47,472 nucleotides of DNA from an uncultured Gammaproteobacteria bacterium (GTDB taxonomy: Bacteria; Pseudomonadota; Gammaproteobacteria; Pseudomonadales; Halieaceae), in NCBI GenBank assembly GCA_902519405.1, contig CABYJX010000011.1, forward strand, positions 1-47,472, in the 5' to 3' direction. A model generated the notes under the pieces. That model was not told the DNA's origin, did no database searches, and worked only from the letters and a program-made list of their open reading frames with translations. Both the position numbers and the translations under genes were made by a program. Position 1 is the stretch's first letter. Every line of letters starts with the position of its first letter. Below, in pieces: positions 19,405 to 32,416 of this stretch.

Positions 19405-19500
19405 TTAATCCTCGATAGAGTAGACTAACTCCTCGAAAATCGTTTCCTTGATCTCGATCGTTTTAAGTTCGGAAGGGTCATCTTCCCCACCTCGATACAT
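19405..19500 (-). CDS. Possible 31-residue acidic protein at the end of the envelope cluster
   Basis: An ATG overlaps the TAA stop of the M48 gene by one base (TAATG) and opens a frame ending at TAA 19405-19407. It encodes an acidic, helix-prone peptide beginning MYRGGEDDPSELK and ending VYSIED. The overlap is typical of translational coupling, and the frame fills the otherwise empty gap before the convergent hydrolase gene. No signal peptide or membrane segment is present and I know no family for it. At this length a chance ORF is a real possibility. Confidence 0.4.
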   Translation of the reverse strand: MYRGGEDDPSELKTIEIKETIFEELVYSIED

Positions 19501-20894
19501 TAGGGCCTGATTACCTTGAACCAATCTCCGGTCCTAGGCTCTCCTCGAGGATATATCCCATTAATTAATCTGTGGGTGGCTTCAGCTTCTGGGATGGGAC
19601 TTTTCGCTGCCAGACTTCCAACAGTCTGACCACGAGGTACTCGAATATACCTAACATATAAAGGAGGACCAGTAATCTGCTCTGCCTCAGTCATCGAGCG
19701 AAAGCTCTTAATTATTTTCAGTAGCGTTGGATCATTTTTCTTGATGTCTGTAGCGGTTCCTTCAAACAAATAGGAATAATTTTGATCGATCACTGCTATA
19801 CGCTTGGTCAGATGTTTGTCGGAGATTAGAGCGGTATAACCTTGCAGACCAAACTGTTGGAGACTTTCCTCACTGGATAATTTTCCAGTTGAAAGTTTCT
19901 TTAATGTCTCCTCGGGTTTGATCAAGACATCACGTTTTCGAAGCATTATTCGAAGCACTGCCCCATCTTTGACAGATTCAGCGATCACAGCACCAGAGGT
20001 TTCACTGATACTCCATCCGTCTGGCAGTTCTATCGTAAAGCCAAGACTATTATGGTAATAACGCTGATCTTTACGCTTGCTACTTGCATGATCACCCCAA
20101 GGAAGTTCCTGCATATATTTTCGAAAATCTGTAGTTACATCATTGATCAAAAGTGCTTCATCGGTCTCGACCCGTTTTACAGACTTAATAATTTCTTTTA
20201 GTCTTCGATCGCTACGCGGATGGCTCGCATAAAGCCCATGGTAACTAGCAGGCTTATTGCCAGATAGGCGCTGATGCATCTCAAGATACTTCATAGTCGA
20301 AAGTGCATCGATTATTGCTTCCACATCGTAGCCATTTTTTGCAATATAATTTGCCCCCAGCCGATCAGCCTCCAGTTCACGATTTCGTCCAAAGCTTGCC
20401 CCAACCTCAGCACCGTACATCTGTGCCGCACTAGCCAGATCTCCACTACCAGTTAATATTAATGTTCCAAAGCTCGCGATCTTTTGTATTAGGTTAGAAG
20501 TAGTGCCCTCAGAATGGTGATTAGCGGTAACATGAGCAATCTCGTGACCCACTATTCCTGCTAGTTCAGCTTCAGAATTCAGATAATTAAGAAGCCCTCG
20601 ATTAACGTATATATAACCACCGGGCATAGCAAAGGCATTTATGGTTCCGTCGTCAACGATCCTAAACGTAAAGGATTCTATCCTTTTATAACCACTACTT
20701 GCGACTAGCTTATTGCCTATTTTATCTAAGTATCTTTGTAGTTCAGGGTCTTCATAAAAAAGCCCATTTTTCTCCATTTCCTCAAATTTTTCCTTACCGA
20801 TTTCTTTTAAACCTGATTCAACATTAATCGAGAAGACAGCTAATGCCATAACCGAAATAATTGATAAGACTGATTTGTTTTCACTAAAAGCCAA
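19500..20894 (-). CDS. M48-family metalloprotease, exported
   Basis: A 464-residue peptidase with an N-terminal hydrophobic segment (about 9-26) acting as signal peptide or anchor. The gluzincin motif HEIAH is at 117-121 and the third zinc ligand is expected at E173 in ELEAD. The layout resembles BepA-like envelope proteases that process outer-membrane proteins, with an extra C-terminal half (about 270-464) of unknown role ending in GDWFKVIRP. The start is a TTG with AGGA about 13 bases upstream, 3 bases after the previous stop. It is the last large gene of the minus-strand envelope cluster, so it may process or quality-control the cluster's lipoproteins or outer-membrane partners. Confidence 0.86.
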   Translation of the reverse strand: MAFSENKSVLSIISVMALAVFSINVESGLKEIGKEKFEEMEKNGLFYEDPELQRYLDKIGNKLVASSGYKRIESFTFRIVDDGTINAFAMPGGYIYVNRGLLNYLNSEAELAGIVGHEIAHVTANHHSEGTTSNLIQKIASFGTLILTGSGDLASAAQMYGAEVGASFGRNRELEADRLGANYIAKNGYDVEAIIDALSTMKYLEMHQRLSGNKPASYHGLYASHPRSDRRLKEIIKSVKRVETDEALLINDVTTDFRKYMQELPWGDHASSKRKDQRYYHNSLGFTIELPDGWSISETSGAVIAESVKDGAVLRIMLRKRDVLIKPEETLKKLSTGKLSSEESLQQFGLQGYTALISDKHLTKRIAVIDQNYSYLFEGTATDIKKNDPTLLKIIKSFRSMTEAEQITGPPLYVRYIRVPRGQTVGSLAAKSPIPEAEATHRLINGIYPRGEPRTGDWFKVIRP

Positions 20895-20897
20895 GAC

Positions 20898-21548
20898 TTA
20901 GAATTTTCCTGATAAAAACTCGAGAAGTTGATCGCCGATCCCATCACATGCGGCACCCTTGACCGGTGCGTGTATCGGGAGTGGTATGAATATTGATGGC
21001 ATATAGGTTTGACCGCTGCTCTCTGTATTGACCTTCCCTACTTCTGCAAGTGCAGTAAAATCCCAGATAGTTGCTTCATAGTTAGCCTCGTTTCCCCAGG
21101 TCGCAAATCCGAAGCAGCCATGCAAACTGCAAGATAGACTCCCATCACTCCCCGTATTCTTAGTACTGCCATCTATCCAAATCATATAAGCAAGGTCAAG
21201 AGATTCAAGTTTCTGCAGCAATACTCGTTCTTGAGCGAAGCGCTGAAGGTTTTCCGGTTCGAGTGGCGCTGTTCTTGGCTCAAACCATGGATATAGATTA
21301 TCTAAAAAATAACTTTCAGGGATTATTGTTATTGTCGGATCTTTCCTCATGATGTGGGAGCCCACGCACTGCACAAAATCCGGTTCGGTAGCATAATCAC
21401 TACCATGTCGGCGGCCTAGAATTACTGCTGTGTCCTCACCAATACCAATTTGTGGCTCGTTAAATACCATTTCATCGACTCTTGACGTGACACAGCCACC
21501 TAAAATATTGATCGATAGGAGTAAGGGCATCAATATTCTAATATTCAT
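20898..21548 (-). CDS. Lipoprotein of unknown function (envelope cluster)
   Basis: A 216-residue predicted lipoprotein; the signal peptide ends in NILGGC (lipidated C19). The mature protein carries further cysteines, including CSLHGC and a late AACDG, which could form disulfides. I recognise no family. The sequence looks like a compact alpha/beta periplasmic domain with a glycine-rich central segment. Its ATG overlaps the stop of the upstream lipoprotein gene (ATGA, 4 bases), and 3 bases separate its stop from the M48 gene, so it is firmly part of the operon. Confidence 0.7.
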   Translation of the reverse strand: MNIRILMPLLLSINILGGCVTSRVDEMVFNEPQIGIGEDTAVILGRRHGSDYATEPDFVQCVGSHIMRKDPTITIIPESYFLDNLYPWFEPRTAPLEPENLQRFAQERVLLQKLESLDLAYMIWIDGSTKNTGSDGSLSCSLHGCFGFATWGNEANYEATIWDFTALAEVGKVNTESSGQTYMPSIFIPLPIHAPVKGAACDGIGDQLLEFLSGKF

Positions 21549-22258
21549 TGGCTTACCTCATTAGACTTCGGTTGTGAAAATGTGTTCTCTTCTGAGTCAC
21601 TTTCTTGAGAAGTTAGCCCCTCTAACCAAAGAGAAACAGGCTCGGTACGTCGAAAAGTTGTGACAAAGTGCGCACCTGCGTCCCTTAGAGCCATGATAGC
21701 GGCTAAATTAATTGCATCTTCTTTTGATTGACCGCCTTCAATACCCATCACAAGGTTCTGTGGGGTTTTTCCATAAGCGGTCATTTCCCAATCACCAAGT
21801 GGCTCGCCTAGGACGTTGACTAACTCGAACCGATAGCGCATCCAGATTTCATAAACCTTTACCTGCGTGTGTGAGGGTATGGCATATTGAAGCTCCTCGA
21901 TATGCGGAATAATGACCATGCTCACCGTTTTTGCCGGGCTCTCCCGGGAAGGTCTTTCCGAAAGGGTAAGTGTCTCTGAAAAAACTCCAGAAAAAATCAT
22001 ATCCCAAAGCTTTATCTGCGCTTCCCCAGTCTTGATGTGCCAGTCAGATTGACCCCTAGACTTTGCCTCATCGAAAATTTCGTGCGACTTGAATTCGGCT
22101 TCATAATAAACACCCACTGTTTGATTAATTTTTTCTGTCAATGGTGTAGGGAATTCTCCTTGGACAACTACTTGCTTACTCCCGCAGCTTGACAAGAACA
22201 AACTTGTCAGGACAACTAGGTAAGGTATCAAATTTCTACAAACCGACAAAAGCGCCAT
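21545..22258 (-). CDS. Lipoprotein of unknown function (envelope cluster)
   Basis: A 237-residue predicted lipoprotein with lipobox LFLSSC (C25). The mature part has segments such as QVKVYEIWMRYRFEL and GDWEMTAYGKTP, suggestive of an alternating beta-strand fold seen in periplasmic lipoproteins that dock on transporters or secretin-type complexes; this is an impression, not a domain match. The last 25 residues are polar and probably disordered. The start lies 23 bases inside the upstream vWA gene, and the stop overlaps the next lipoprotein gene, indicating translational coupling on both sides. Confidence 0.68.
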   Translation of the reverse strand: MALLSVCRNLIPYLVVLTSLFLSSCGSKQVVVQGEFPTPLTEKINQTVGVYYEAEFKSHEIFDEAKSRGQSDWHIKTGEAQIKLWDMIFSGVFSETLTLSERPSRESPAKTVSMVIIPHIEELQYAIPSHTQVKVYEIWMRYRFELVNVLGEPLGDWEMTAYGKTPQNLVMGIEGGQSKEDAINLAAIMALRDAGAHFVTTFRRTEPVSLWLEGLTSQESDSEENTFSQPKSNEVSQ

Positions 22259-23234
22259 CGTTAAGTCCTGTTAGTGGTCGAGCAAGTCTTGCGAAGCACT
22301 CTGACATAAGACGTCCCTCGGGACCGCCATAAGTACGCATACCGATAGCGTTTATTTTGGTTATTTTTATGCCATCTATCCCTTTGCGATTTCTTTTGGT
22401 TATTCCTCTTACTAGTGATGTTGGATTCTGACATTTTGAAATCCCCGCCCGGAAATCATCTCCTATGAGGAAAATGCTACCCGGAAAATCTGTTTTGTCG
22501 ATGAGATCAACAGCTTTAATCAGCCCTTTTGTAGGATTTGACGCATCTGAGGGAAAGCTCTCAAGTCTTTGTTTTATTTTACTTCTATTCACCTGGGAAT
22601 CCTCAATCCAGCCTATCGTCTCAAAAATCAATTGATTCCCATCTGAATCAAAGACCTGCATTCCTCTAGTCTGGGGATGGGCGTCAAGTATCGAAGCAAT
22701 GACTCCAGAGAGCGAGCCATCTTCTTTCCTTGGATTCATTGAACCTGAGAGGTCTACGACAAAAATAATGTAAGGCCTATCAGCATGTATACCTATTACC
22801 AGCTCATTTCTATTATCAGCTATATTTTTAAGTAGATCTTCCTCTAATGTAGTTAGTTCCTCAAGTCGTTGACGCAGCTTTTTATGATTCTCTACAGCTT
22901 GAATATCACTAGTTTTGGGAATTAGTCGACTTGTGCTCTTCAATTTCCCTAAAAGAATATTTTTTGTTTGTTTTAGCTCCAATCTAACCTCAGAGAGAGA
23001 ATCAACTTTCAACTCGGTACGTTGATTGCTAGTCTCTAACTTTAGAAAGGCTTGTTTGAGTTCAATAAGTTCGTTTCGCAAATTCGTAACTAAGGAGTCT
23101 AAGATTTGCGACTCAGCTGTCTTAGTGATCATGAGAAGGAGTATTACTGCGCCAAAACCACAACAAATGACATCTAGAAAAGATACCGAGAATTCTTCTG
23201 GCGTGCGTCTTCTGCTTTTTCGACTTCTAGACAT
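22236..23234 (-). CDS. Membrane-anchored von Willebrand A protein 1 with ExbD/MotB-like N-terminus
   Basis: A 332-residue protein with three parts: a very basic cytoplasmic N-terminus (1-12), one membrane helix (about 15-37) with the motif SFLDVICCGFGAV including Asp21, a coiled-coil stretch (about 40-145), and a von Willebrand A domain (about 153-330). The MIDAS metal motif is DLSGS (D161, S163, S165). By topology the vWA domain lies in the periplasm. A basic tail, one helix with a single Asp, then a periplasmic domain is the architecture of MotB, ExbD and TolR, but with vWA in place of a peptidoglycan- or TonB-interacting domain. A MotA/ExbB-type gene is three genes upstream. The short membrane motif is shared with the second vWA gene. 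Function is unknown. Confidence 0.8.
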   Translation of the reverse strand: MSRSRKSRRRTPEEFSVSFLDVICCGFGAVILLLMITKTAESQILDSLVTNLRNELIELKQAFLKLETSNQRTELKVDSLSEVRLELKQTKNILLGKLKSTSRLIPKTSDIQAVENHKKLRQRLEELTTLEEDLLKNIADNRNELVIGIHADRPYIIFVVDLSGSMNPRKEDGSLSGVIASILDAHPQTRGMQVFDSDGNQLIFETIGWIEDSQVNRSKIKQRLESFPSDASNPTKGLIKAVDLIDKTDFPGSIFLIGDDFRAGISKCQNPTSLVRGITKRNRKGIDGIKITKINAIGMRTYGGPEGRLMSECFARLARPLTGLNDGAFVGL

Positions 23235-23302
23235 CGTTGGGTATCGTCCATGACTGGTTTAATGATTCTTTTTCGGCATCTTCAGCATATGCATAATCCT
23301 CT

Positions 23303-24403
23303 TCAGTATTTTGACCTCCCCCAATTGCGCTCAGGGGCAATGAAACATCCTCCCTTCTCTACCGCTAACTTCCAAAACAGGTAGCTAGCTTTTACGTCTC
23401 CCTCAAAGGGTAGAAGTATTACGTTTAGCGAAGCGAGATCTGGCATGTCTTTTTGTGCTGCTAGGAAATACTTATAGCGATCACTCACAGAAACCTTTTC
23501 ATACCTATCGGAATTTCCTTTCTGATTGGGTAACCCATCCGTGATTATCCAGATAGAATCAGGAACTGGATCCAATTTTTGCAGTGACAGCATGGCATTT
23601 TGTAAATTAGTACCTCCGTGAGGGATGATCGTCTCTATATTTGAGGCTACCACTTCCAATTCAGGCTGATTCTTTGCTTCCAGCCAAGTATCTTCCGTAT
23701 TATCTTTAATTGCTTTGATTTCATCATTAAATATGTATGCTTGATATTTTGTTTGGGTAGAAAAGCTACCTAGGATCCACTGAAGGGATTTAACTGCGGA
23801 GCGCCATTTTGGTGCCTTTAACTGGACACCGTCTATTTCATTCTGAAGTGCATAGACATCAGGAACTGTCGTTTCAAGCATACTGGCGGAGATATCCATT
23901 ACGATAGCGACATGGGAGCCCATCAATTTACATCCACTTAATCGTTGTCTTCCGCCACTGCCCGTAAAATTAAGTGGACTCTCATCTTGCAAGGCTCTAC
24001 TTTTGCTTTCCAGAGTGTTTAAACTTGCTTCTATTTGGATAATTTGTTGGTTAAGACTGGCCAAGTCTTGTTGATTAGGTACTTTTTTAACCGGTTGTGC
24101 ATTCAAAGTGTCCAGAGCAGATAAATCTGATTTAAGTGATTCAATTGATTTCTCTAGGTGCATAATTTCGCTGTTCAATTCGAGGGTTTTTGAATCGAGC
24201 GTTTTGGAACGTTCATTTTCCTTTTCGATGCTAGATTTTAATAGATCCACTTCCAATTGCGACACTTGATTAGAATTAAGAACATCCTCCTTGATGCTAT
24301 GATCAATAATCATGAAAACCAAAACCACCGCCCCAAAACCGCAGGACATAATATCTAGAAAGCTCAGACTGAAAGTAGTAAAGGTGCGATTTTTTCGGGC
24401 CAC
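23303..24403 (-). CDS. Membrane-anchored von Willebrand A protein 2 (probable 3' frameshift)
   Basis: A 366-residue paralogue of the neighbouring vWA protein. It has a basic N-terminus, a membrane helix (about 11-34) with SFLDIMSCGFGAV and Asp17, a long coiled coil (about 45-140) and a vWA domain (about 163-360) with MIDAS DISAS (D170, S172, S174), a downstream GGTN and an ITDG site. Start is a GTG, 3 bases after the preceding stop. The frame ends at 23303, leaving a 68-base gap unlike the rest of this packed operon. Removing one base near the GGGGG run at about 23318-23322 opens a frame that continues with an acidic 20-30-residue tail and stops at 23227, overlapping the next start. So the annotated C-terminus may be wrong or genuinely truncated. 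Confidence 0.8.
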   Translation of the reverse strand: MARKNRTFTTFSLSFLDIMSCGFGAVVLVFMIIDHSIKEDVLNSNQVSQLEVDLLKSSIEKENERSKTLDSKTLELNSEIMHLEKSIESLKSDLSALDTLNAQPVKKVPNQQDLASLNQQIIQIEASLNTLESKSRALQDESPLNFTGSGGRQRLSGCKLMGSHVAIVMDISASMLETTVPDVYALQNEIDGVQLKAPKWRSAVKSLQWILGSFSTQTKYQAYIFNDEIKAIKDNTEDTWLEAKNQPELEVVASNIETIIPHGGTNLQNAMLSLQKLDPVPDSIWIITDGLPNQKGNSDRYEKVSVSDRYKYFLAAQKDMPDLASLNVILLPFEGDVKASYLFWKLAVEKGGCFIAPERNWGRSKY

Positions 24404-24406
24404 AGC

Positions 24407-25633
24407 CTAACTCTCCGACCTAAGGTGTATTAAAACGACCGCTTCGTCATGGAATTGAAGTCGATCGCCTGGTACGAGGGCTCGCCTGGAAATCGGAATA
24501 GAATTACAGGTTAGCTGATCCGCGGGTGAAGCAAACCAATCTTCTTTAATGCAATGCAGTCGAATATTATCGGATATGATTCCGTCTCCCAGAGGATGGG
24601 CAGTGCAATGCTCATCTAGCCAGTGGGTGGGACGTATTTTTCTCGGCAGTTTTTTGCCAATAGTTTTGGAGATTTTTTCTACCGGAGCTGGGGTAGTGGG
24701 TACCGCTTTGATGAGTCTAAGCGAGTTTGGGTCAAGTTTGATTGAGTTTATTAGACATGGTCGTAAATTATCGCTCGAAATGATGTTTGGTATTTGATTG
24801 ATCCCTGGTAGGGTGCCTGCGGGTGTTTCCAGAAGTACGGGCCTTTGATCTAGGTCTTGATGTATCCCTCTCATCCTAATAATTAGTTCATCCGTAATGT
24901 GCTTCACGTCCGCTGAACAAAGCCGTGCTACATGTCCTTGTATTTCACAGCTTGCCTCATCATGTTCAAAGAGTTCCCTAATTATTTTAGGCGTCTGGTC
25001 GTATAACAGTTGGTCGGTGTACGCCTGCTTTCTAGGATCAAAACGAGTTTGACTAATAAAGTTGGCAGCGACTACCGACGCGTAGCGCTCTTTTAAGTGA
25101 AGCAAGCCCATGCCAGGAATCACACTGGAACCAGCAACTGAAAATGAATCGTCACAATAGTTTAATTCAACGATCATCGCCTGATGTAGCTGCAGCTCCA
25201 GATGTAACATAGGGGTGCGAGCGGATACACTTGCTGCCAGAAGAGGACTTCTATGGATTATTCCTAGCGCCATGAATGGACACTGCTCAATGATACCGAG
25301 TAAAAGAGAGAGTTGTTCTTTGCTCATGCTTCCTGAGACGGCAAGCGCGATCTGATTTGATTCAGGTGCACTTTGATAAAGCGATAGCAGGTGCTGATGC
25401 ACCAGATCCGCCGTATGTCTAGCGGGACCAAAAGAAAGTTGAAGCGGCTCTGTACCCAATTGCCACCAAAATTTATTATTAACCTTCCTAGGTTGGGTTC
25501 GGTATTTTTTCTCAGCGGCTTTACCAAATACAAACTCGTTTTCACTATTGAAGACGAAGCCATTACTGTGCATTACCTTTTCTTCATAAAGCAATCTGAT
25601 TGACGTATCCAAAAGATCAAGGACTGTGGCCAC
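24407..25633 (-). CDS. Divergent actin/Hsp70-fold-like protein with possible FHA-like C-terminus
   Basis: A 408-residue soluble protein with no signal peptide or membrane segment. The start is GTG, 5 bases after the channel gene. Residues 1-240 show a pattern like the actin/Hsp70 ATPase fold: an N-terminal strand pair, then QIALAVSGSMSKEQLSLLL followed by a helix and a second strand with LGIIHRSPLLAAS, and a later HLELQLHQAMIVEL strand pair. The usual phosphate-binding glycines are not clear, so it may not hydrolyse ATP. Residues about 340-404 contain ISRRALVPGDRLQF, reminiscent of the end of an FHA domain. Both assignments are tentative pattern readings. As the only large cytoplasmic protein of the cluster, it could be the control or energising component. 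Confidence 0.6.
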   Translation of the reverse strand: MATVLDLLDTSIRLLYEEKVMHSNGFVFNSENEFVFGKAAEKKYRTQPRKVNNKFWWQLGTEPLQLSFGPARHTADLVHQHLLSLYQSAPESNQIALAVSGSMSKEQLSLLLGIIEQCPFMALGIIHRSPLLAASVSARTPMLHLELQLHQAMIVELNYCDDSFSVAGSSVIPGMGLLHLKERYASVVAANFISQTRFDPRKQAYTDQLLYDQTPKIIRELFEHDEASCEIQGHVARLCSADVKHITDELIIRMRGIHQDLDQRPVLLETPAGTLPGINQIPNIISSDNLRPCLINSIKLDPNSLRLIKAVPTTPAPVEKISKTIGKKLPRKIRPTHWLDEHCTAHPLGDGIISDNIRLHCIKEDWFASPADQLTCNSIPISRRALVPGDRLQFHDEAVVLIHLRSES

Positions 25634-25638
25634 AATAG

Positions 25639-26436
25639 TTACTCGTTAGCGAGATGTCTAAGGAGTTGCTGGTCAGCACATCGCTGGCAGTCAAGCACCA
25701 GTCTCTCCTGTGAGAGCTGAAGCTGGTGTAAGCAAAACATTATGATAATACTTAGTATCAGCGCGACAAAGGTACTATTAAATGCCACGCCAAGGCTCGC
25801 GGTTACTCCGGAGATATCTCCTTCTACGGCCTTGTAGGCTTGACCTAAGGCTTCTCCAATTCCCCTCACGGTGCCAATAAATCCAATTGATGGAATTGCC
25901 CATGCAATGTATCGCACCATGGAAAGTTCCGAATCAAGTCTTTCTGCTTCGATATCGCATTGCTCCTTGATGGTATCGGACACGGATTGGACACTTCCTG
26001 TAGTACTAAAGCGTTGTAAAGCCGACAGGAGAGTTCTTACAAGAAGAAATTTCTGTTCTGAATTAGGCAGACCTTCTAACGCTCTGCTATACTCACGTGC
26101 ATCTACAGGAAGTACACTCATCCCCTCGGGTATATCTAACAGTGGCGTATTGGCCATATTTCGTTCAAAAAATGTCTGTCTGCCTTTGAAAGCCATAATT
26201 GCTAGGGCCCAAAGCATTAATATAAGGCATGCCTCTTGTTCAAAATCCCTCACGACAACTGCGAGGCTTCTATTCGGCACTACCTGCTCACCGGCGGCCA
26301 TGAGTGATGCCTGTTGCTGAAGTTCAGCATTGGCGGTGGGGCGTATTATTCCGACATAGGAGCCGTGGACTAAAATGATGATAGTTAAGAGTGCGATTAC
26401 TTGATAGATAAACTCAGAAGATAGCGTCTGCTTCAT
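25639..26436 (-). CDS. MotA/TolQ/ExbB-family proton channel protein
   Basis: A 265-residue inner-membrane protein with four predicted helices (about 9-29, 66-86, 172-194, 212-237) and a large cytoplasmic loop between helices 2 and 3. The final two helices carry the family core: IPSIGFIGTVRGIGEAL, then GVTASLGVAFNSTFVALILSI. In ExbB, TolQ and MotA this forms a pentameric channel around two B-subunit helices that carry an ion-binding aspartate. No ExbD/TolR/MotB gene is in the window, but the two downstream vWA proteins have suitable single helices with one Asp each. Four helices is MotA-like; ExbB and TolQ have three. ATG start with AAGGA nearby. Confidence 0.88.
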   Translation of the reverse strand: MKQTLSSEFIYQVIALLTIIILVHGSYVGIIRPTANAELQQQASLMAAGEQVVPNRSLAVVVRDFEQEACLILMLWALAIMAFKGRQTFFERNMANTPLLDIPEGMSVLPVDAREYSRALEGLPNSEQKFLLVRTLLSALQRFSTTGSVQSVSDTIKEQCDIEAERLDSELSMVRYIAWAIPSIGFIGTVRGIGEALGQAYKAVEGDISGVTASLGVAFNSTFVALILSIIIMFCLHQLQLSQERLVLDCQRCADQQLLRHLANE

Positions 26437-26489: not shown

Positions 26490-28553
26490 TCATTCGGCAT
26501 AACGCGCTATTCGAAATCCTACGTCATCGCGACCCATTTGCCCATAATCACGAGCGGAGAGGCGCAGGTCAGAAAGTTTGCTGTGTGACCAACTTGCGCC
26601 GCGAATGACTCGATTGTCACCATCCTGTATTCCCAAAGGATCAATTAAGGGGTTTCCGACAAGGCCTGCTATTTGATAAACATCGTGTATCCATTCAGAG
26701 ACATTGCCGTCAAGGTCATAAAGCTTCCGATGGTTTGCAGGAAAAGAACCCACAGGCGCGCTAACGACGAAGTTGTCGGTGTACCCATTGATTACCCTTC
26801 CATTAATATATGCTGACGCATCATCGGCAAAATTCCTTTTCCCGGAGGGTGGAGGAAAAGTATTGCCCCACGAGAAGCGCATGATCTTATCTCCCCAGAC
26901 GCGTGTTGCCCATGCCCATTCAGCTTCCGTCGGCAGGCGGTATCCCCTAGACTCAGGATTGTGTCCAGTAATCAACCCTTCCGTTTCAATATAAAATTGT
27001 GGGAGTTGTTCCTTTCTACTTAGCCAATTGCAGTACTGCGCCGCTTGTTGCCAATTGACTCGCACCACAGGTTGCTGCTCGCGATTCAAAGAGGCGCCTC
27101 GAATCTGCCCAGAATTGTGATCAGGTTCAAATAAGCGAAACTGGGCATTGGTGACTTCTTTGTTCTGCATATAAAACAGACGTTCTAGTCTGACCGTTCG
27201 CATTACTTCGTCTGCTCGGCGGCCTGGTTCTGAGCGGGGTGCACCCATCTTGAATTGACTGTTAGCCTTACTCTGAGGATTAAAAAGTATCAGCGTTTGA
27301 TTGGTTAAGGTGGTTTCAATTGGTTTTAAATGAGCTACCCGTGCTTGTGCAGTCGTCAGCAGGTTGACGTCTATGCTCAAAGGAAAATCTGGGACTGGGG
27401 TCACTATTTGTGTATTACTTGCATAGCCTTGCCGACGTATTTCTATTCGTTGAGGTGTTGCTGGAAGTAACAGGGTAGTATTTCCCGATCCCCTCGATTT
27501 CCCATTAATGATTAATTCGGCAGTTTTGGGTTTGAGATTAAAATGAAGTTCTCCGTAGCGCGGCTGGAGCAATACTCTAAGGGCTTTTCGCTCACCTGGA
27601 CTGAGTTTTATTTCTTTCGATTCTCGTTTATACCCGGGTAGGGAAACAGAAATTCGATGAACGTCATTTGGAGAGATTTCAATTTCTAAGGGTGATGGCC
27701 CTAAAAAATTTCCATCCAGCGACACGTTTGCGGCCACAGGGCTGGTCTTTAGCTCAATGACACCGGAAGCAGGGACTAGATCAAGCATGCCAAGATTCTT
27801 TGGTTCTCCAGCGACAGTCTCCAGATCGATTTGAAGAGGTGCATAGCCAGGTAACTTTAATACGATTTGATGAGATCCTGCTGGTACGAGGACCGTTGTA
27901 GGTGTTATGCCGAGTCTCTCTCCATCTAGTTTCACCTCAGCGCCCTGAGGAGTACTGCCCAACGTTATATCGGCCCAACCAGGTTGCATCTCTAAAATAA
28001 ATTGCTGTTTAACAGATCTCCCCTTGATCTCTATCTTTTCTTTAAAATCGAGATATTTATTATGTGATAGAGTGAGGTCATACTCCCCCGCCTCTAGGAT
28101 AAGTTCCATTTTTGGTGTGGCACCTTTTGAAATCCCATTAAGACTAATCGCGGCGCCCACCGGTTTGGATTCTATAGTTACTATACCTGGGAGTATGGAT
28201 AGAGAGAGTTGAACGAGCTGATTTGATTCTGATCCCACATTTAGCGTTGTTTGCAAAGGTTCATATCCTTCCGCAGAAATCTGCATTGGATAATTCCCTT
28301 CGCGTATTAGAAACCTATTTCCAATCGGAATGGCAAGTCCACTTATTTCGATTTTTGGTTTAGAAATGGTATCGGTCTGAATTTGAATTGATCTGGCAGT
28401 CAGAAGAAAGCTTAAACAAATTAAGAATACGAAAAACCCTATCCAGAGAAGCCACCTAGCTGACATCTTTTGATCTTCGCTGCTCGATTGCTCGCCATCT
28501 AGTGATTTAAAATCAGCAGGCTGAATAATATCTTCAGAATCATTTTCTGACAT
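26490..28553 (-). CDS. Single-pass protein with five PEGA-like repeats and an FGE/SUMF1-fold domain
   Basis: About 687 residues using the ATG at 28553 (MSENDSED), which overlaps the preceding stop as TGATG and has AGAGG upstream; an in-frame ATG 18 bases earlier is less likely. Order: cytoplasmic tail, membrane helix (about 34-53), five tandem PEGA-like beta domains (about 67-122, 124-189, 193-260, 264-330, 334-397), each with a core such as GAEVKLDGERLG, then a formylglycine-generating-enzyme-fold domain (about 424-685) with YRLPTEAEWAWA, LYDLDGNVSEW and RVIRGASW. The catalytic cysteine pair of true FGE is absent (GASWSHSKLSD), so a binding or structural role is more likely than enzymatic activity. 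The domains should be periplasmic. PEGA domains are often found in surface and secretion-associated proteins. Confidence 0.85.
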   Translation of the reverse strand: MSENDSEDIIQPADFKSLDGEQSSSEDQKMSARWLLWIGFFVFLICLSFLLTARSIQIQTDTISKPKIEISGLAIPIGNRFLIREGNYPMQISAEGYEPLQTTLNVGSESNQLVQLSLSILPGIVTIESKPVGAAISLNGISKGATPKMELILEAGEYDLTLSHNKYLDFKEKIEIKGRSVKQQFILEMQPGWADITLGSTPQGAEVKLDGERLGITPTTVLVPAGSHQIVLKLPGYAPLQIDLETVAGEPKNLGMLDLVPASGVIELKTSPVAANVSLDGNFLGPSPLEIEISPNDVHRISVSLPGYKRESKEIKLSPGERKALRVLLQPRYGELHFNLKPKTAELIINGKSRGSGNTTLLLPATPQRIEIRRQGYASNTQIVTPVPDFPLSIDVNLLTTAQARVAHLKPIETTLTNQTLILFNPQSKANSQFKMGAPRSEPGRRADEVMRTVRLERLFYMQNKEVTNAQFRLFEPDHNSGQIRGASLNREQQPVVRVNWQQAAQYCNWLSRKEQLPQFYIETEGLITGHNPESRGYRLPTEAEWAWATRVWGDKIMRFSWGNTFPPPSGKRNFADDASAYINGRVINGYTDNFVVSAPVGSFPANHRKLYDLDGNVSEWIHDVYQIAGLVGNPLIDPLGIQDGDNRVIRGASWSHSKLSDLRLSARDYGQMGRDDVGFRIARYAE

Positions 28554-30076
28554 CAAATGGCCTCTTTGCATTTGATATTAATCTTTAAGGGAATTAGGTC
28601 TTTGGAGACATCGAATGAAATTCGAATGTCTCGGTATCCGTCTCTAAATCCTGCAGCAGTATAACTTCCCGGGCGCAGTAGTAATTCTCGTGAATCGAAC
28701 CTTCCCAGCTCGGCAATCTTATAGAGCGTGATGTTGGTTAGACCATCAGAGACAAATTTTACGGGTAGCTTTGTATTTGCTTCTTCAAGTAGAGTCGCCA
28801 CAGTGCTTATTTGATCTCTAAGGCGTGGCCCCGGTCTAGGGATTTGTTTTGCAGTCGCAAGTGTCTTATCCGCCTCCTGAGCTACTTTGCTAATCTTTAA
28901 CTTTTCAGGATCTTCAATAAAGCCACTGAGTTTTTGATCTAATGCCCTTCTTGGTGAAACCCGAGCCAGTCCTTGGTTAGCAAATAGGAGATTCTTATCT
29001 TTCTTTAATGCTTCCGAGAATCGCTTCTCTGCTCCGATCCAATTTTCTTGACTTTCCAGAACAGCAGATTCTTGGCGAAGTACAAATAGCCTATTTCGCA
29101 TCTCCGATTCTTTTAACTCGGTTATCGCTGAAAGAACTTCTTTGGAGAGTGGGTCGAGTGTTTTTGCCTGCGTAAAGTGTTGGCGAGCCGGAGGTAGATT
29201 ATTTTTTTCAAGTGCTTGATAGCCTAAGCTCATTGCCGTATCGAATAGGCTTTTGGTCAGCTTGATCTGGGAGGTTTCTAGTGCGCCCAGTATAAGAGGG
29301 TGCTCAGGATCCAGTTGCTCGGCTTCCTGCAGTTTTGAAACCGCTTGCTCCAGTCGCCCTTGCCGCTCTAGCAATTGACTAGATTCGAGTGCGGCGAGTA
29401 TTAGCGGCAAGGCCTTCATTCGAAGATCTATTTCTGTTAATCGTGAGTTGGCAGGATCTAAAAGTGATGCTTGGGAATATAGATCTTCACTTTTCTGAAT
29501 GTCACCATCATCGATGGATAGTCTAAGATCTGACAAAATCTTTTCAAATCTCTCGGGCACAGAGGCTTCTAAGGCAAGTAGCATATCCCGAGCCTTCTCG
29601 TACTCGACAGCCGCCAGTCCATACTCCTTCGCTCGATAAGCCTTATCGGCGTTTAATGCGATTAGTCCGGCGCTATCTATTGTATCTGGTGCCCAAGTCG
29701 CTGCACCCACTTTTTTAAGTCTTGATTTAATTTCGGCGGCTTCTGCTGTAAGTTCCAGCGCATTCTGCTTCGACTTTTTAAGTGCTGCGTCAGCCCAAGG
29801 TGAAGCGGTATCTTGAGCTTCTTGCAATGCCACCCTACTGTTAATCCGGATGTTGGTGGCTTTAGTAGTATCCGCCAGTGGTAATACGACATTTTGGTCT
29901 TGAGATATCAGTGACGGCAACCAAAGAATCACGAAAAGAACGATGCAAGCCAGTCCGGAGATCAAGCAGATTAACCGACGTGAGAGTTTTCCCTCTCCTA
30001 CGGTCGGATTTGATTTATCTTCCCCAAGTGAGGCTTTAAATGGTGTGGGTGTCAAAATATCGTTATAGTCAGGCAT
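28553..30076 (-). CDS. Single-pass TPR protein with PEGA-like C-terminus (envelope cluster)
   Basis: A 507-residue protein: cytoplasmic tail (1-33), one membrane helix (about 34-57), a helical region (about 70-400) with several TPR-like units such as AVSKLQEAEQLDPEHPLI and ARQHFTQAKTLDPLSKEV, and a C-terminal beta domain (about 438-505) with ELLLRPGSYTAAGFRDGYR that resembles a PEGA domain. The helical domain should be periplasmic. The cytoplasmic tail motif NDILTPTPFK matches EDIIQPADFK in the next protein, which suggests a shared docking site. The stop overlaps the next gene's start by one base (TGATG). The start is ATG, 22 bases after the upstream gene. Function is unknown; probably a scaffold. 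Confidence 0.78.
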   Translation of the reverse strand: MPDYNDILTPTPFKASLGEDKSNPTVGEGKLSRRLICLISGLACIVLFVILWLPSLISQDQNVVLPLADTTKATNIRINSRVALQEAQDTASPWADAALKKSKQNALELTAEAAEIKSRLKKVGAATWAPDTIDSAGLIALNADKAYRAKEYGLAAVEYEKARDMLLALEASVPERFEKILSDLRLSIDDGDIQKSEDLYSQASLLDPANSRLTEIDLRMKALPLILAALESSQLLERQGRLEQAVSKLQEAEQLDPEHPLILGALETSQIKLTKSLFDTAMSLGYQALEKNNLPPARQHFTQAKTLDPLSKEVLSAITELKESEMRNRLFVLRQESAVLESQENWIGAEKRFSEALKKDKNLLFANQGLARVSPRRALDQKLSGFIEDPEKLKISKVAQEADKTLATAKQIPRPGPRLRDQISTVATLLEEANTKLPVKFVSDGLTNITLYKIAELGRFDSRELLLRPGSYTAAGFRDGYRDIRISFDVSKDLIPLKINIKCKEAI

Positions 30077-30098: not shown

Positions 30099-31349
30099 CT
30101 ATTGAGCTTCAGCACCGATCAATTGACCACCTGAAATTTCAGGTGGGGAGGGAGCTAGAGGGCTCTCCCCAACGTTAATATGGGGAATCTCGGTCTCGGC
30201 CCTATAAATTTCAGCTAAAATCTGACGCCACTGGGCATATTGCTCTTCTACGGTTCCTGTGAGCAAAGTAGTTTTATCCTCTAGCTGGATCAGTCGTGGA
30301 GTGATTTTTGCATCAAGCAGTAGCCCCATTTCTTCTAGCCGTCCAATATGGATTTGAGCTTGGTTTCGAAGTTCTAACCCACTTTTCACAAGGTAACCGC
30401 CGCCCATAACGGCCGTCGCTCCCGCAATGCGGGTACTTCGATCGTCACTGGTACTTGCGGCAAGCCCAGCTGCCACCGACAAGCCGCCCGCAATAAGTCT
30501 TGCTCTATATTCCCTCTGCTCTTCCCTGAGTGCCAGCGTCGAATCAAGATTCTCATTTCGCCATTGTTGATAGCCGTCATGCATTTCCTGCGAGAAGTTT
30601 GAGTAGTAGTCCTGAAGCGTATCAACGTAGATAAAATCTCTTTCACGCACCGTACGAACACGCTCCAGCATCGGGTCGTTTTCAGCAGGTAGCCGGATCA
30701 TTTTAATCGAGCCACTAGGAGTTTCTTGCAAATGTCCACCAAAAGCATCGGGAGAAAAGCTTTGTGCAAAGGTCAGCTCCGTGATTTTTCTTAAGTTAGT
30801 ACGATCCTTCTCAGGCAGTGTACTTAGAATGGTAGTGAGATCATTTGCAATATTATTGTATACAGCTTGGAATGGATCGTACTGGCTGCGAGTTGTCGCC
30901 TCATATGCGTAGAGGCTGACTCGTGTTTCGTAATTTTTGTTTAGCCAAATCTGATTCCTAGAATCAGCCACCCGGATCTTTAAATTCAGACGCTCCCCAT
31001 CTGAATGTACTATTTTTCCGTCCACGGTAAGGTCTGTGATTGTATCTGAGTTAGGAACGACCCTCACCGCTGCCCAAGCACCTGTTTCCTGCAGCGCCTC
31101 AGCGAGCCTTAGTGACATGTAGGCCGCTTCAGCTTTTCGAAGCTCCGGATAGATAGGAACGTCATCAGACTCTTCGTCCTCCAGTCCAGGATCGAAGACA
31201 GGAATAGCTACATCCAGTAACTGAGATTCGGGTGCAGGTGTCACGACGACGTTAAGTGCCGGAATCTTAGTAGTTTTGACCGTTTCAGTTACACATCCTG
31301 ATAGGAAAGCGATAAAAATACAGGGCAAAAGGCTATGGCGCATAATCAT
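30099..31349 (-). CDS. Large lipoprotein with glycine-zipper segment (envelope cluster)
   Basis: A 416-residue predicted lipoprotein with lipobox AFLSGC (C19). Residues about 45-175 form an alpha/beta domain in which VDGKIVHSDGERLNLKIRV and ALQETGAWAAVRVVP resemble periplasmic domains that sense or bind. Residues about 285-327 are unusual: a hydrophobic, glycine-rich stretch (AGGLSVAAGLAA, then AGATAVMGGGYLV) like a glycine zipper, which in other lipoproteins inserts into the outer membrane. The C-terminus is polar and proline-rich. The ATG overlaps the stop of the Ser-Ser-Gly lipoprotein gene by 4 bases (ATGA). I recognise no named family. Confidence 0.74.
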   Translation of the reverse strand: MIMRHSLLPCIFIAFLSGCVTETVKTTKIPALNVVVTPAPESQLLDVAIPVFDPGLEDEESDDVPIYPELRKAEAAYMSLRLAEALQETGAWAAVRVVPNSDTITDLTVDGKIVHSDGERLNLKIRVADSRNQIWLNKNYETRVSLYAYEATTRSQYDPFQAVYNNIANDLTTILSTLPEKDRTNLRKITELTFAQSFSPDAFGGHLQETPSGSIKMIRLPAENDPMLERVRTVRERDFIYVDTLQDYYSNFSQEMHDGYQQWRNENLDSTLALREEQREYRARLIAGGLSVAAGLAASTSDDRSTRIAGATAVMGGGYLVKSGLELRNQAQIHIGRLEEMGLLLDAKITPRLIQLEDKTTLLTGTVEEQYAQWRQILAEIYRAETEIPHINVGESPLAPSPPEISGGQLIGAEAQ

Positions 31350-32416
31350 TTTTTGATCCCCATATATTTACGATATCGATCCCAAAGTGCTTCGCGTTTA
31401 ACTGAGTCAGATTCTCTCTCGGCACGCTCACGAAGCTGCCGGGCAGTAACATCTTCATCCTTTGAGTTATCTTGAATATCCTCTGGAACAGGATACTTTT
31501 CAGCCTTATCTCTCTTTGAGGGCGCGACACTCACCACTTTCCGCAATTCTCCAGTCCTTGGATCTATTGAATCCAAACCATCCGTAGGCATCGCATTTTG
31601 GGGGGATTGTTCGATGTTGGTATCGGATTTTTCCAAGGGTGATTTTGTTTTATCTCTCTGCTGTCCTGTACGCGCTTCAGCAATTGCCTGATCAAATTTT
31701 CCTGCCGAAGAATTTAGTTCAGCATCTAAAATCGCAATTTTTTCAGCGGTGGTTAAATCACCTCTATCGGTTATTTCCGAGATATCATCGTCATTAGTTG
31801 TTCTTTCAATTGAGTCGCCTCGTTTTGATGTTTGGTTTGAATCATTGGATGGATAGCGGGAAGACTGGTTTCTCTCGTAGGGGTTGCTAGTCGAACTAGA
31901 GGCTGTTGCAGGTAAATCCCTCATATCAGGCAGTTCGTCTGTTTGAGATAATTCTCCAAAACCAGGACCTGCTGTTTTAATAGATCTTCCCGTATTAGGA
32001 GATTCTTGTGTGATCTTGGGGGACGTTTTTGAGTTCCCTAAATCCCCTGTTGGAGCTGTTGAGACACCCTCGCTTTCAGGTAAATTGTTTCCTGAAGAAC
32101 CTGAAGAACCTGAAGAACCTGAAGAACCTGAAGAACCTGAAGAACCTGAAGAACCTGAAGAACCTGAAGAACCTGAAGAACCTGAAGAAGAGTCTTGGTC
32201 TTTTGTCGAGCTTGTAGAGGGTGTGCTGGTACTCGAACCAGCACCTGTCTTACCCCCGCTGTTTCCTCCGGCAGAGGGATTGGGTAGAGGCATGGGAAGC
32301 GAGACCGACACTCCTGAATTCGATGGCGTAGATGTGGGTAACGACACGCATCCGGTCGTTAAGGATAATACTACAATGGCTATCCACCATTTTTTAGGAT
32401 CTCTTTTCGCTACCAT
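31346..32416 (-). CDS. Low-complexity lipoprotein with (Ser-Ser-Gly)11 tract (envelope cluster)
   Basis: A 356-residue predicted lipoprotein; the signal peptide ends in LTTGC (C23). Nearly the entire mature protein is polar, rich in Ser, Gly, Pro, Thr, Asp and Lys and probably disordered, including an exact (SSG)11 run at about residues 77-109. The C-terminal third is charged and helix-prone (TARQLRERAERES). The design suggests a flexible tether or spacer spanning the periplasm. The reading frame is open through the repeat, and an antisense frame with EEP repeats is a shadow. The start at 32416 has AAGGGTGATG upstream. It lies 84 bases after the first cluster gene, the longest gap between these genes, so an internal promoter is possible. 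Confidence 0.78.
   Translation of the reverse strand: MVAKRDPKKWWIAIVVLSLTTGCVSLPTSTPSNSGVSVSLPMPLPNPSAGGNSGGKTGAGSSTSTPSTSSTKDQDSSSGSSGSSGSSGSSGSSGSSGSSGSSGSSGSSGNNLPESEGVSTAPTGDLGNSKTSPKITQESPNTGRSIKTAGPGFGELSQTDELPDMRDLPATASSSTSNPYERNQSSRYPSNDSNQTSKRGDSIERTTNDDDISEITDRGDLTTAEKIAILDAELNSSAGKFDQAIAEARTGQQRDKTKSPLEKSDTNIEQSPQNAMPTDGLDSIDPRTGELRKVVSVAPSKRDKAEKYPVPEDIQDNSKDEDVTARQLRERAERESDSVKREALWDRYRKYMGIKK
32091..32189 (-). repeat. Perfect tandem repeat, 11 copies of a 9-base unit
   Basis: Eleven identical copies of CCTGAAGAA (plus strand), read on the minus strand as codons TCT-TCA-GGT for Ser-Ser-Gly. The copies are identical at every base including third positions, so the array expanded recently, probably by slippage. 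Because the unit is a multiple of three, copy-number change would alter protein length without breaking the frame. Confidence 0.97.

Follow-up and report, generated by a model that had tools for sequence, protein, structure and literature searches.

Introduction

In ion-driven channel motors, the role of the axle (the B-subunit) is elsewhere played by ExbD, TolR or MotB. ExbD and TolR (PF02472) possess a basic N-terminal tail, a lone membrane helix with a single Asp and a partner of the ExbB/TolQ family, while MotB combines a PF13677 plug with an OmpA-type domain. Another arrangement has been predicted by Williams-Jones et al. (2025; Mol Biol Evol msaf138, PMC12204202): in that paper, the TPH-vWA proteins occur as heterologous pairs tightly linked to tolQ-like genes and accompanied by neither tolR nor exbD; their conserved Asp helix is placed by AlphaFold 3 within the pore of a pentamer, among a ring of Thr residues, and the pair is proposed as the partner of the TolQ-like pentamer. 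The present work concerns a locus of this kind in a stretch of 47,472 nucleotides from an uncultured marine bacterium of the Halieaceae (Gammaproteobacteria; contig CABYJX010000011.1 of assembly GCA_902519405.1), hereafter called the window, in which a gene for a channel protein of the MotA/TolQ/ExbB family stands close to the genes of two proteins with von Willebrand factor A (vWA)-type domains, vWA1 and vWA2.

We propose, with good confidence, that vWA1 and vWA2 form the axle of an ion-driven channel motor of the inner membrane. That the pair replaces ExbD, TolR or MotB had been suggested by an earlier reading of the window without database searches (the sequence-only reading), and the suggestion is now supported by the co-occurrence of the genes, by the helix Asp, by the conservation of the helix and by the absence of an ordinary B-subunit. 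The same reading had regarded a vWA domain at the moving end of such a motor as new, a claim that must be withdrawn, since the idea had been put forward in 2025 (PMC12204202). Judged by matching features, i.e., paired vWA proteins, linkage to a tolQ-like gene, lack of tolR or exbD and an Asp in the helix, the window locus is most likely a member of the TPH-vWA family of that paper; the query there was an Idiomarina protein, and no Idiomarina locus is found among the 80 loci kept from our scan. The present data back the published prediction, short of proving it.

Literature searches found no experiment on these vWA proteins. In the consulted parts of two other papers, one on the evolution of MotAB (PMC12505986) does not mention vWA, and the term is absent from a review that cites the 2025 paper (PMC12905483). 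The MoxR-vWA conflict systems (PMC7159879) were weighed as well and dismissed, since MotA, ExbB and TolQ do not occur as terms in the text consulted.

Architecture of the Channel and of the vWA Pair

The channel (A) subunit (25639..26436, minus strand; 265 amino acids) matches PF01618 over residues 134-249 (E 7.3e-15), its 55.3 bits standing against a curated cut-off of 22.9, and thus belongs to this family. Its residues T189 (25870-25872) and T222 (25771-25773) are invariant in the 45 rows of alignment A1, and they align with the Thr of the TolQ segments 'LFGTV' and 'LIAT' in a profile match that is weak (E 0.064). A reading of the locus as a defence system (Zorya) was set aside: PADLOC gave just a weak ZorA-type match for the channel (ZorA2, E 0.0042, far weaker than that to PF01618) and no ZorB among the ten proteins scanned, in both of which respects the locus differs from Zorya. 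In L071 and L076 (genomes G264 and G244, of one genus) the channel and the operon are transcribed divergently, and the channel is only 37-39% identical to that of the window; the vWA pair is normal there despite the divergent channel.

On the minus strand the channel gene is followed by an Hsp70-like gene (24407..25633), by vWA1 (23303..24403; 366 amino acids, GTG start) and by vWA2 (22236..23234; 332 amino acids), the channel thus lying two and three genes upstream of the pair; this order, the coordinates and the positions of the two Asp residues agree with the sequence-only reading, which had also described both proteins as a basic tail followed by a single membrane helix bearing an Asp, a coiled coil and a periplasmic vWA domain. 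Sequence analysis of both proteins, and the model of vWA1, bear this build out. The tails carry a net charge of +3 and +4, and each protein has one strongly hydrophobic stretch, FLDIMSCGFGAVVLVFMII and FLDVICCGFGAVILLLMIT; the two membrane helices share the motif SFLDxxxCGFGA. The helix spans residues 12-36 in vWA1 (24296..24370, minus strand; D17 codon at 24353-24355) and residues 16-40 in vWA2 (23115..23189, minus strand; D21 codon at 23172-23174).

The vWA domain of vWA1 (residues 160-358; 23330..23926, minus strand) has a metal site composed of D170-S172-S174, T265 and D289, and the vWA-type domain of vWA2 (residues 150-332; 22239..22787, minus strand) one composed of D161-S163-S165 and D259; the DxSxS signature and the later Asp are near-invariant in both alignments. 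The AlphaFold2 model of vWA1 (50 rows; mean predicted local distance difference test score, pLDDT, 80) consists of a single unbroken helix from residue 15 to residue 100 and then the domain, for which vWA domains are among the Foldseek matches in the PDB (ITIH1, BatB and CMG2; E 1e-8 to 1e-5). The Pfam vWA matches of the pair are sub-threshold (E 0.018 and 0.0072), and the domain call for vWA2 is based on its sub-threshold match together with the conserved metal-site residues, the fold being assigned by a model in vWA1. A sequence search of the PDB with the vWA1 profile returned mostly coiled-coil matches and was set aside. A vWA domain behind a lone N-terminal helix with a conserved Asp, as in the TPH-vWA proteins, is therefore present, in vWA1 by the model.

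Conservation and Divergence of the Membrane Helix

Because the helix Asp is found in all the rows of the vWA1 (46/46) and vWA2 (45/45) alignments, SFLDxxxCGFGA is not a chance feature. No distinct helix sequence lacks the Asp (89/89 and 91/91, from 113 and 108 proteins), so that the residue to which the sequence-only reading had assigned the ion is conserved throughout the homologues; in some vWA motifs of L132, L137, L072 and L241 it had been missed by the motif count and was recognised on re-reading. At 20 loci from other orders of the class, 18/18 vWA1 and 17/17 vWA2 helices carry it; two of these loci have no vWA pair next to the channel, namely L249 (G503), whose pair is on another contig, and L257 (G326), where the channel is of another type and is accompanied by an Asp-helix gene of its own, in a genome with no vWA1 match. 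As to the composition of the alignments, L088 and L089, in which the gene is split between contigs, and L043 are absent from A1; L043, L056 and L089 from A2; and L043, L061, L071, L076 and L089 from A3, on grounds including truncation, fusion or near-duplication of the copies. Of the relatives available, 54 of 80 entered A4, 49 of 68 entered A5 and 50 of 71 entered A6.

Between positions -3 and +15 about the Asp, the entropy of the vWA helices is mostly below 1 bit, similar to that of ExbD, and far lower than the 2-3 bits at which the operon's TPR and PEGA anchors mostly lie. The near-invariant positions (-2, -1, 0, +4, +5, +7, +8 and +11) are spread all round the helix, by our own estimate at 100 degrees per residue, a distribution that would suit a helix enclosed by protein.

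The lineage of the window offers a further comparison. Its closest named relative is locus L120, of an uncultured Halieaceae bacterium, whose channel is 95% identical, and the two were set against a selection of 17 chosen Halieaceae-type loci. The coils of the window lineage share 18% (vWA1) and 19% (vWA2) identity with those of the 17 loci, compared to 53-64% among the latter; the corresponding values are 37% and 32%, against 69-75%, for the vWA domains, 92% against 96% for the vWA helices and 72% against 75% for the channel. In the window (22236-24403) and in L120, both vWA proteins have changed sharply together outside the helix, and the other operon genes less. Since the helix stays at 92% while the coil and the vWA domain diverge, the pattern may be read as that of a helix held by the channel and of an arm free to vary: an evolutionary sign that the helix would belong with the motor core and the vWA arm with the output.

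It could be objected that the two helices are plain membrane anchors whose Asp serves some function apart from the channel, for instance helix pairing, which the GxGA motif would suit, the contact between helix and channel being one that we infer. We regard this as very improbable: the other anchors of the operon vary freely and the vWA helices are nearly frozen, a freeze which has outlasted the divergence of the remainder of the vWA proteins.

Co-occurrence and Make-up of the Pair

The distribution of the system was studied in 293 genomes of the order. Channel matches at E 1e-3 are found in 108 of them, and an orthologue in 68 (E at most 3.9e-56, the next best match having 2.0e-20). Querying the 293 genomes with the vWA1 profile (threshold E 1e-12) returned exactly the 68 channel genomes, each with at least two vWA matches; channel and vWA1 are, then, both present in 68 genomes and both lacking in 225, with either one alone in none. 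At all 43 named loci with full flanks, the channel, the Hsp70-like protein, vWA1, vWA2, the TPR and PEGA proteins and three lipoproteins are all present, a heterologous vWA pair thus lying beside a tolQ-like gene in 43/43, as in the TPH-vWA systems. No vWA1 match was obtained in the plasmids searched.

A heterodimer with one copy of each vWA protein is a plausible make-up for the axle. Alternatively, one vWA protein might form a homodimeric axle and the other be an accessory, or two kinds of motor might share one channel protein; we infer the 5:2 make-up with one copy per vWA protein. These alternatives we hold to be unlikely: the two helices bear the same invariant motif, each of the 68 genomes has both genes, and the arms of vWA1 and vWA2 have changed in parallel in the lineage of the window.

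Absence of an Ordinary B-subunit

No MotB, ExbD or TolR gene stands in the cluster, as the sequence-only reading had noted. PF02472 matches neither vWA1 nor vWA2, and no ExbD (PF02472) is found in the whole source assembly, which comprises 1.71 Mb and is 60% complete. The helix motif of ExbD or MotB was found at none of 126 loci (2.06 Mb scanned), by a scan that recovers 22 of 30 known ExbD and 6 of 8 known MotB and can therefore miss some. In eight complete genomes, the 2.5 kb around the vWA-linked channel contain no ExbD or MotB on its strand; in five of these (G158, G242, G181, G229 and G224) this channel is the sole partnerless channel gene, and further partnerless channel genes, all low-scoring, occur in G144 (one), G189 (two) and G222 (one).

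The vWA proteins could nonetheless be force transducers of the TonB/TolA kind, outside the ring, with an axle formed by an ExbD encoded elsewhere. Several observations tell against the placement of the vWA pair within the channel. In seven of the eight complete genomes, one ExbD gene has no channel gene next to it, and in three of these (one genus) it lies 11-15 kb from the vWA-linked channel on the opposite strand; strict co-occurrence and operon linkage would equally fit vWA proteins binding the motor from outside; and in profile comparison the vWA helices reach no significant score with MotB (probability 11% and 8%) or with ExbD (2.5% and 3.8%), the controls giving 6% for vWA2 to the TPR anchor and 12% for ExbD to lipB, and the accepted relatives ExbD and MotB giving only 18%. 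Lacking a significant score, this comparison was not used as proof; the low entropy of the helix and its stability in the diverged window lineage are indirect evidence, yet stronger. Moreover, a separate vWA family of the transducer kind, beside tolQR-like genes, is described in PMC12204202.

That family has tolR-like genes and a helix motif of the SHLS/His type; at the vWA loci studied here, no ExbD-type helix was found, and a helix core with an invariant Asp is present instead. The separate ExbD tied to the channel, which the sequence-only reading had named as a ground for refutation, did not emerge: complete genome G158 has the whole vWA system and seven ExbD genes, each adjoining another channel and none unpaired, and ten further genomes of the window's family have no ExbD near the channel. 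Because G158 lacks any unpaired ExbD, such a gene was judged unlikely as the alternative partner, and the transducer explanation as a whole appears improbable, the vWA pair remaining the favoured axle. At L206, L219 and L222 (genomes G181, G242 and G222), the channel-less ExbD gene is found near genes which, from their sequence, look like mutM and coaD.

Compared to the known axle proteins, the vWA pair shares with ExbD and TolR the basic tail, the lone helix with one Asp and the partner of the ExbB/TolQ family; it differs in the motif (TPLIDVVFLLLIFFM in ExbD/TolR, SFLDxxxCGFGA here) and in having a coil and a vWA domain, with no Pfam ExbD match, in place of the ExbD domain. In the best profile alignment, the Asp of the vWA1 helix falls on that of MotB; unlike MotB, the pair has neither a Pfam MotB plug nor an OmpA-type match.

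The Operon and the Hsp70-like Protein

According to the list of open reading frames, the genes form a run of eleven on the minus strand, from 32416 to 19500: two lipoproteins, TPR, PEGA/FGE-sulfatase, channel, Hsp70-like, vWA1, vWA2, two lipoproteins and M48. Upstream of the channel are two predicted lipoproteins, lipA (31346..32416; Ser/Gly-rich repeats; TTGC followed by Val; 38 of the 43 full-flank loci) and lipB (30099..31349; lipobox LSGC followed by Val; 43/43), a membrane-anchored TPR protein (28553..30076; PF07719, E 1.1e-6; 43/43) and a membrane-anchored protein with PEGA repeats and a SUMF1-like FGE-sulfatase domain (26490..28571; PF08308, E 5e-50; PF03781, E 6.7e-38; 43/43). Downstream of the pair are the predicted lipoproteins lipC (21545..22258, overlapping the end of vWA2; SSC followed by Gly) and lipD (20898..21548; GGC followed by Val), each at 43/43 loci, and an M48 metalloprotease resembling BepA and LoiP (19500..20894), present at 34/43 loci and often the closing gene of the cluster, which matches the NCBIfam BepA model with E 8.9e-32, under its curated cut-off. 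The window copies of the lipoproteins have no Asp directly behind the lipobox Cys. By the sorting rules, the lack of an Asp at this position suggests the outer membrane, which makes the lipoproteins candidate partners of the vWA domains.

The Hsp70-like protein (408 amino acids) has no Pfam family above cut-off; its AlphaFold2 model (mean pLDDT 91.7) has DnaK/Hsc70 as top Foldseek matches (E 1e-14) and shows a nucleotide-binding domain without a substrate domain, plus a small C-terminal beta domain. It is taken to be cytoplasmic because the model has no membrane helix, and it would lie outside the minimal motor because some relatives (L069, L070, L072-L075 and L244-L246) have no copy near the channel. 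The conserved operon of about ten genes, and the Hsp70-like protein within it, are additions beyond the published prediction; indeed, a term search of the main text of PMC12204202 did not find PEGA, Hsp70, M48 or formylglycine.

Related Channel Loci

Distant homologues of the channel belong to loci that also encode an Asp-helix protein with a different motif (SALDLFASAMGAF or similar): L077:11273-12124, L078:3968-4819, L081:9967-10743 and L257:12574-13443. Such a protein beside related channels counts in favour of the axle reading. The Asp-helix protein of L077 matches Pfam VWA (E 1.9e-9) and has PP2C and FHA neighbours; that of L081 has no VWA match. This type looks like a second kind of vWA motor. 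At L084 (8005-10229), L083 and L087, the channel belongs to a third type; behind it come an FGE-sulfatase gene and two membrane proteins, one of which has a ALVDILANGVAVLIIVIV-type helix and, in L084, no Pfam match. The two membrane proteins are perhaps another axle pair. Related channel loci with further Asp-helix partners are likewise an addition to what had been published.

Proposed Mechanism and Significance

In the mechanism that we propose, the channel protein would form a pentamer of the MotA/TolQ/ExbB type in the inner membrane, and inside it, as a two-helix axle, would lie the N-terminal helix of each vWA protein with its single ion-carrying Asp, in the role held elsewhere by ExbD, TolR or MotB. 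The flow of protons (or sodium) would turn the axle relative to the ring; the coil and the vWA domain would pass the motion into the periplasm, where the heads, through their metal site, would grip a partner in the outer membrane or cell wall, probably a lipoprotein of the cluster. The Hsp70-like protein may control the assembly or the activity of the motor.

More tentatively, one may imagine a wider class of ion-driven motors that share the Asp axle helix as a common module and differ in an interchangeable periplasmic arm. The family described here would have paired vWA heads with a cytoplasmic Hsp70-like protein and lipoproteins, a second branch a vWA head with PP2C and FHA genes, and a third perhaps axle pairs free of vWA. 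During rotation, the metal site of the vWA domain might then seize and let go of a lipoprotein of the outer membrane, like a catch, while the Hsp70-like protein would govern the motor from the cytoplasmic side; this extended picture is possible, though doubtful.

The named carriers (e.g., Microbulbifer, Halioglobus and Parahaliea), the strict operon and the invariant pair of Asp residues make the published prediction testable; if it is true, the ion gradient over the envelope of these bacteria would directly power an adhesion-type fold.

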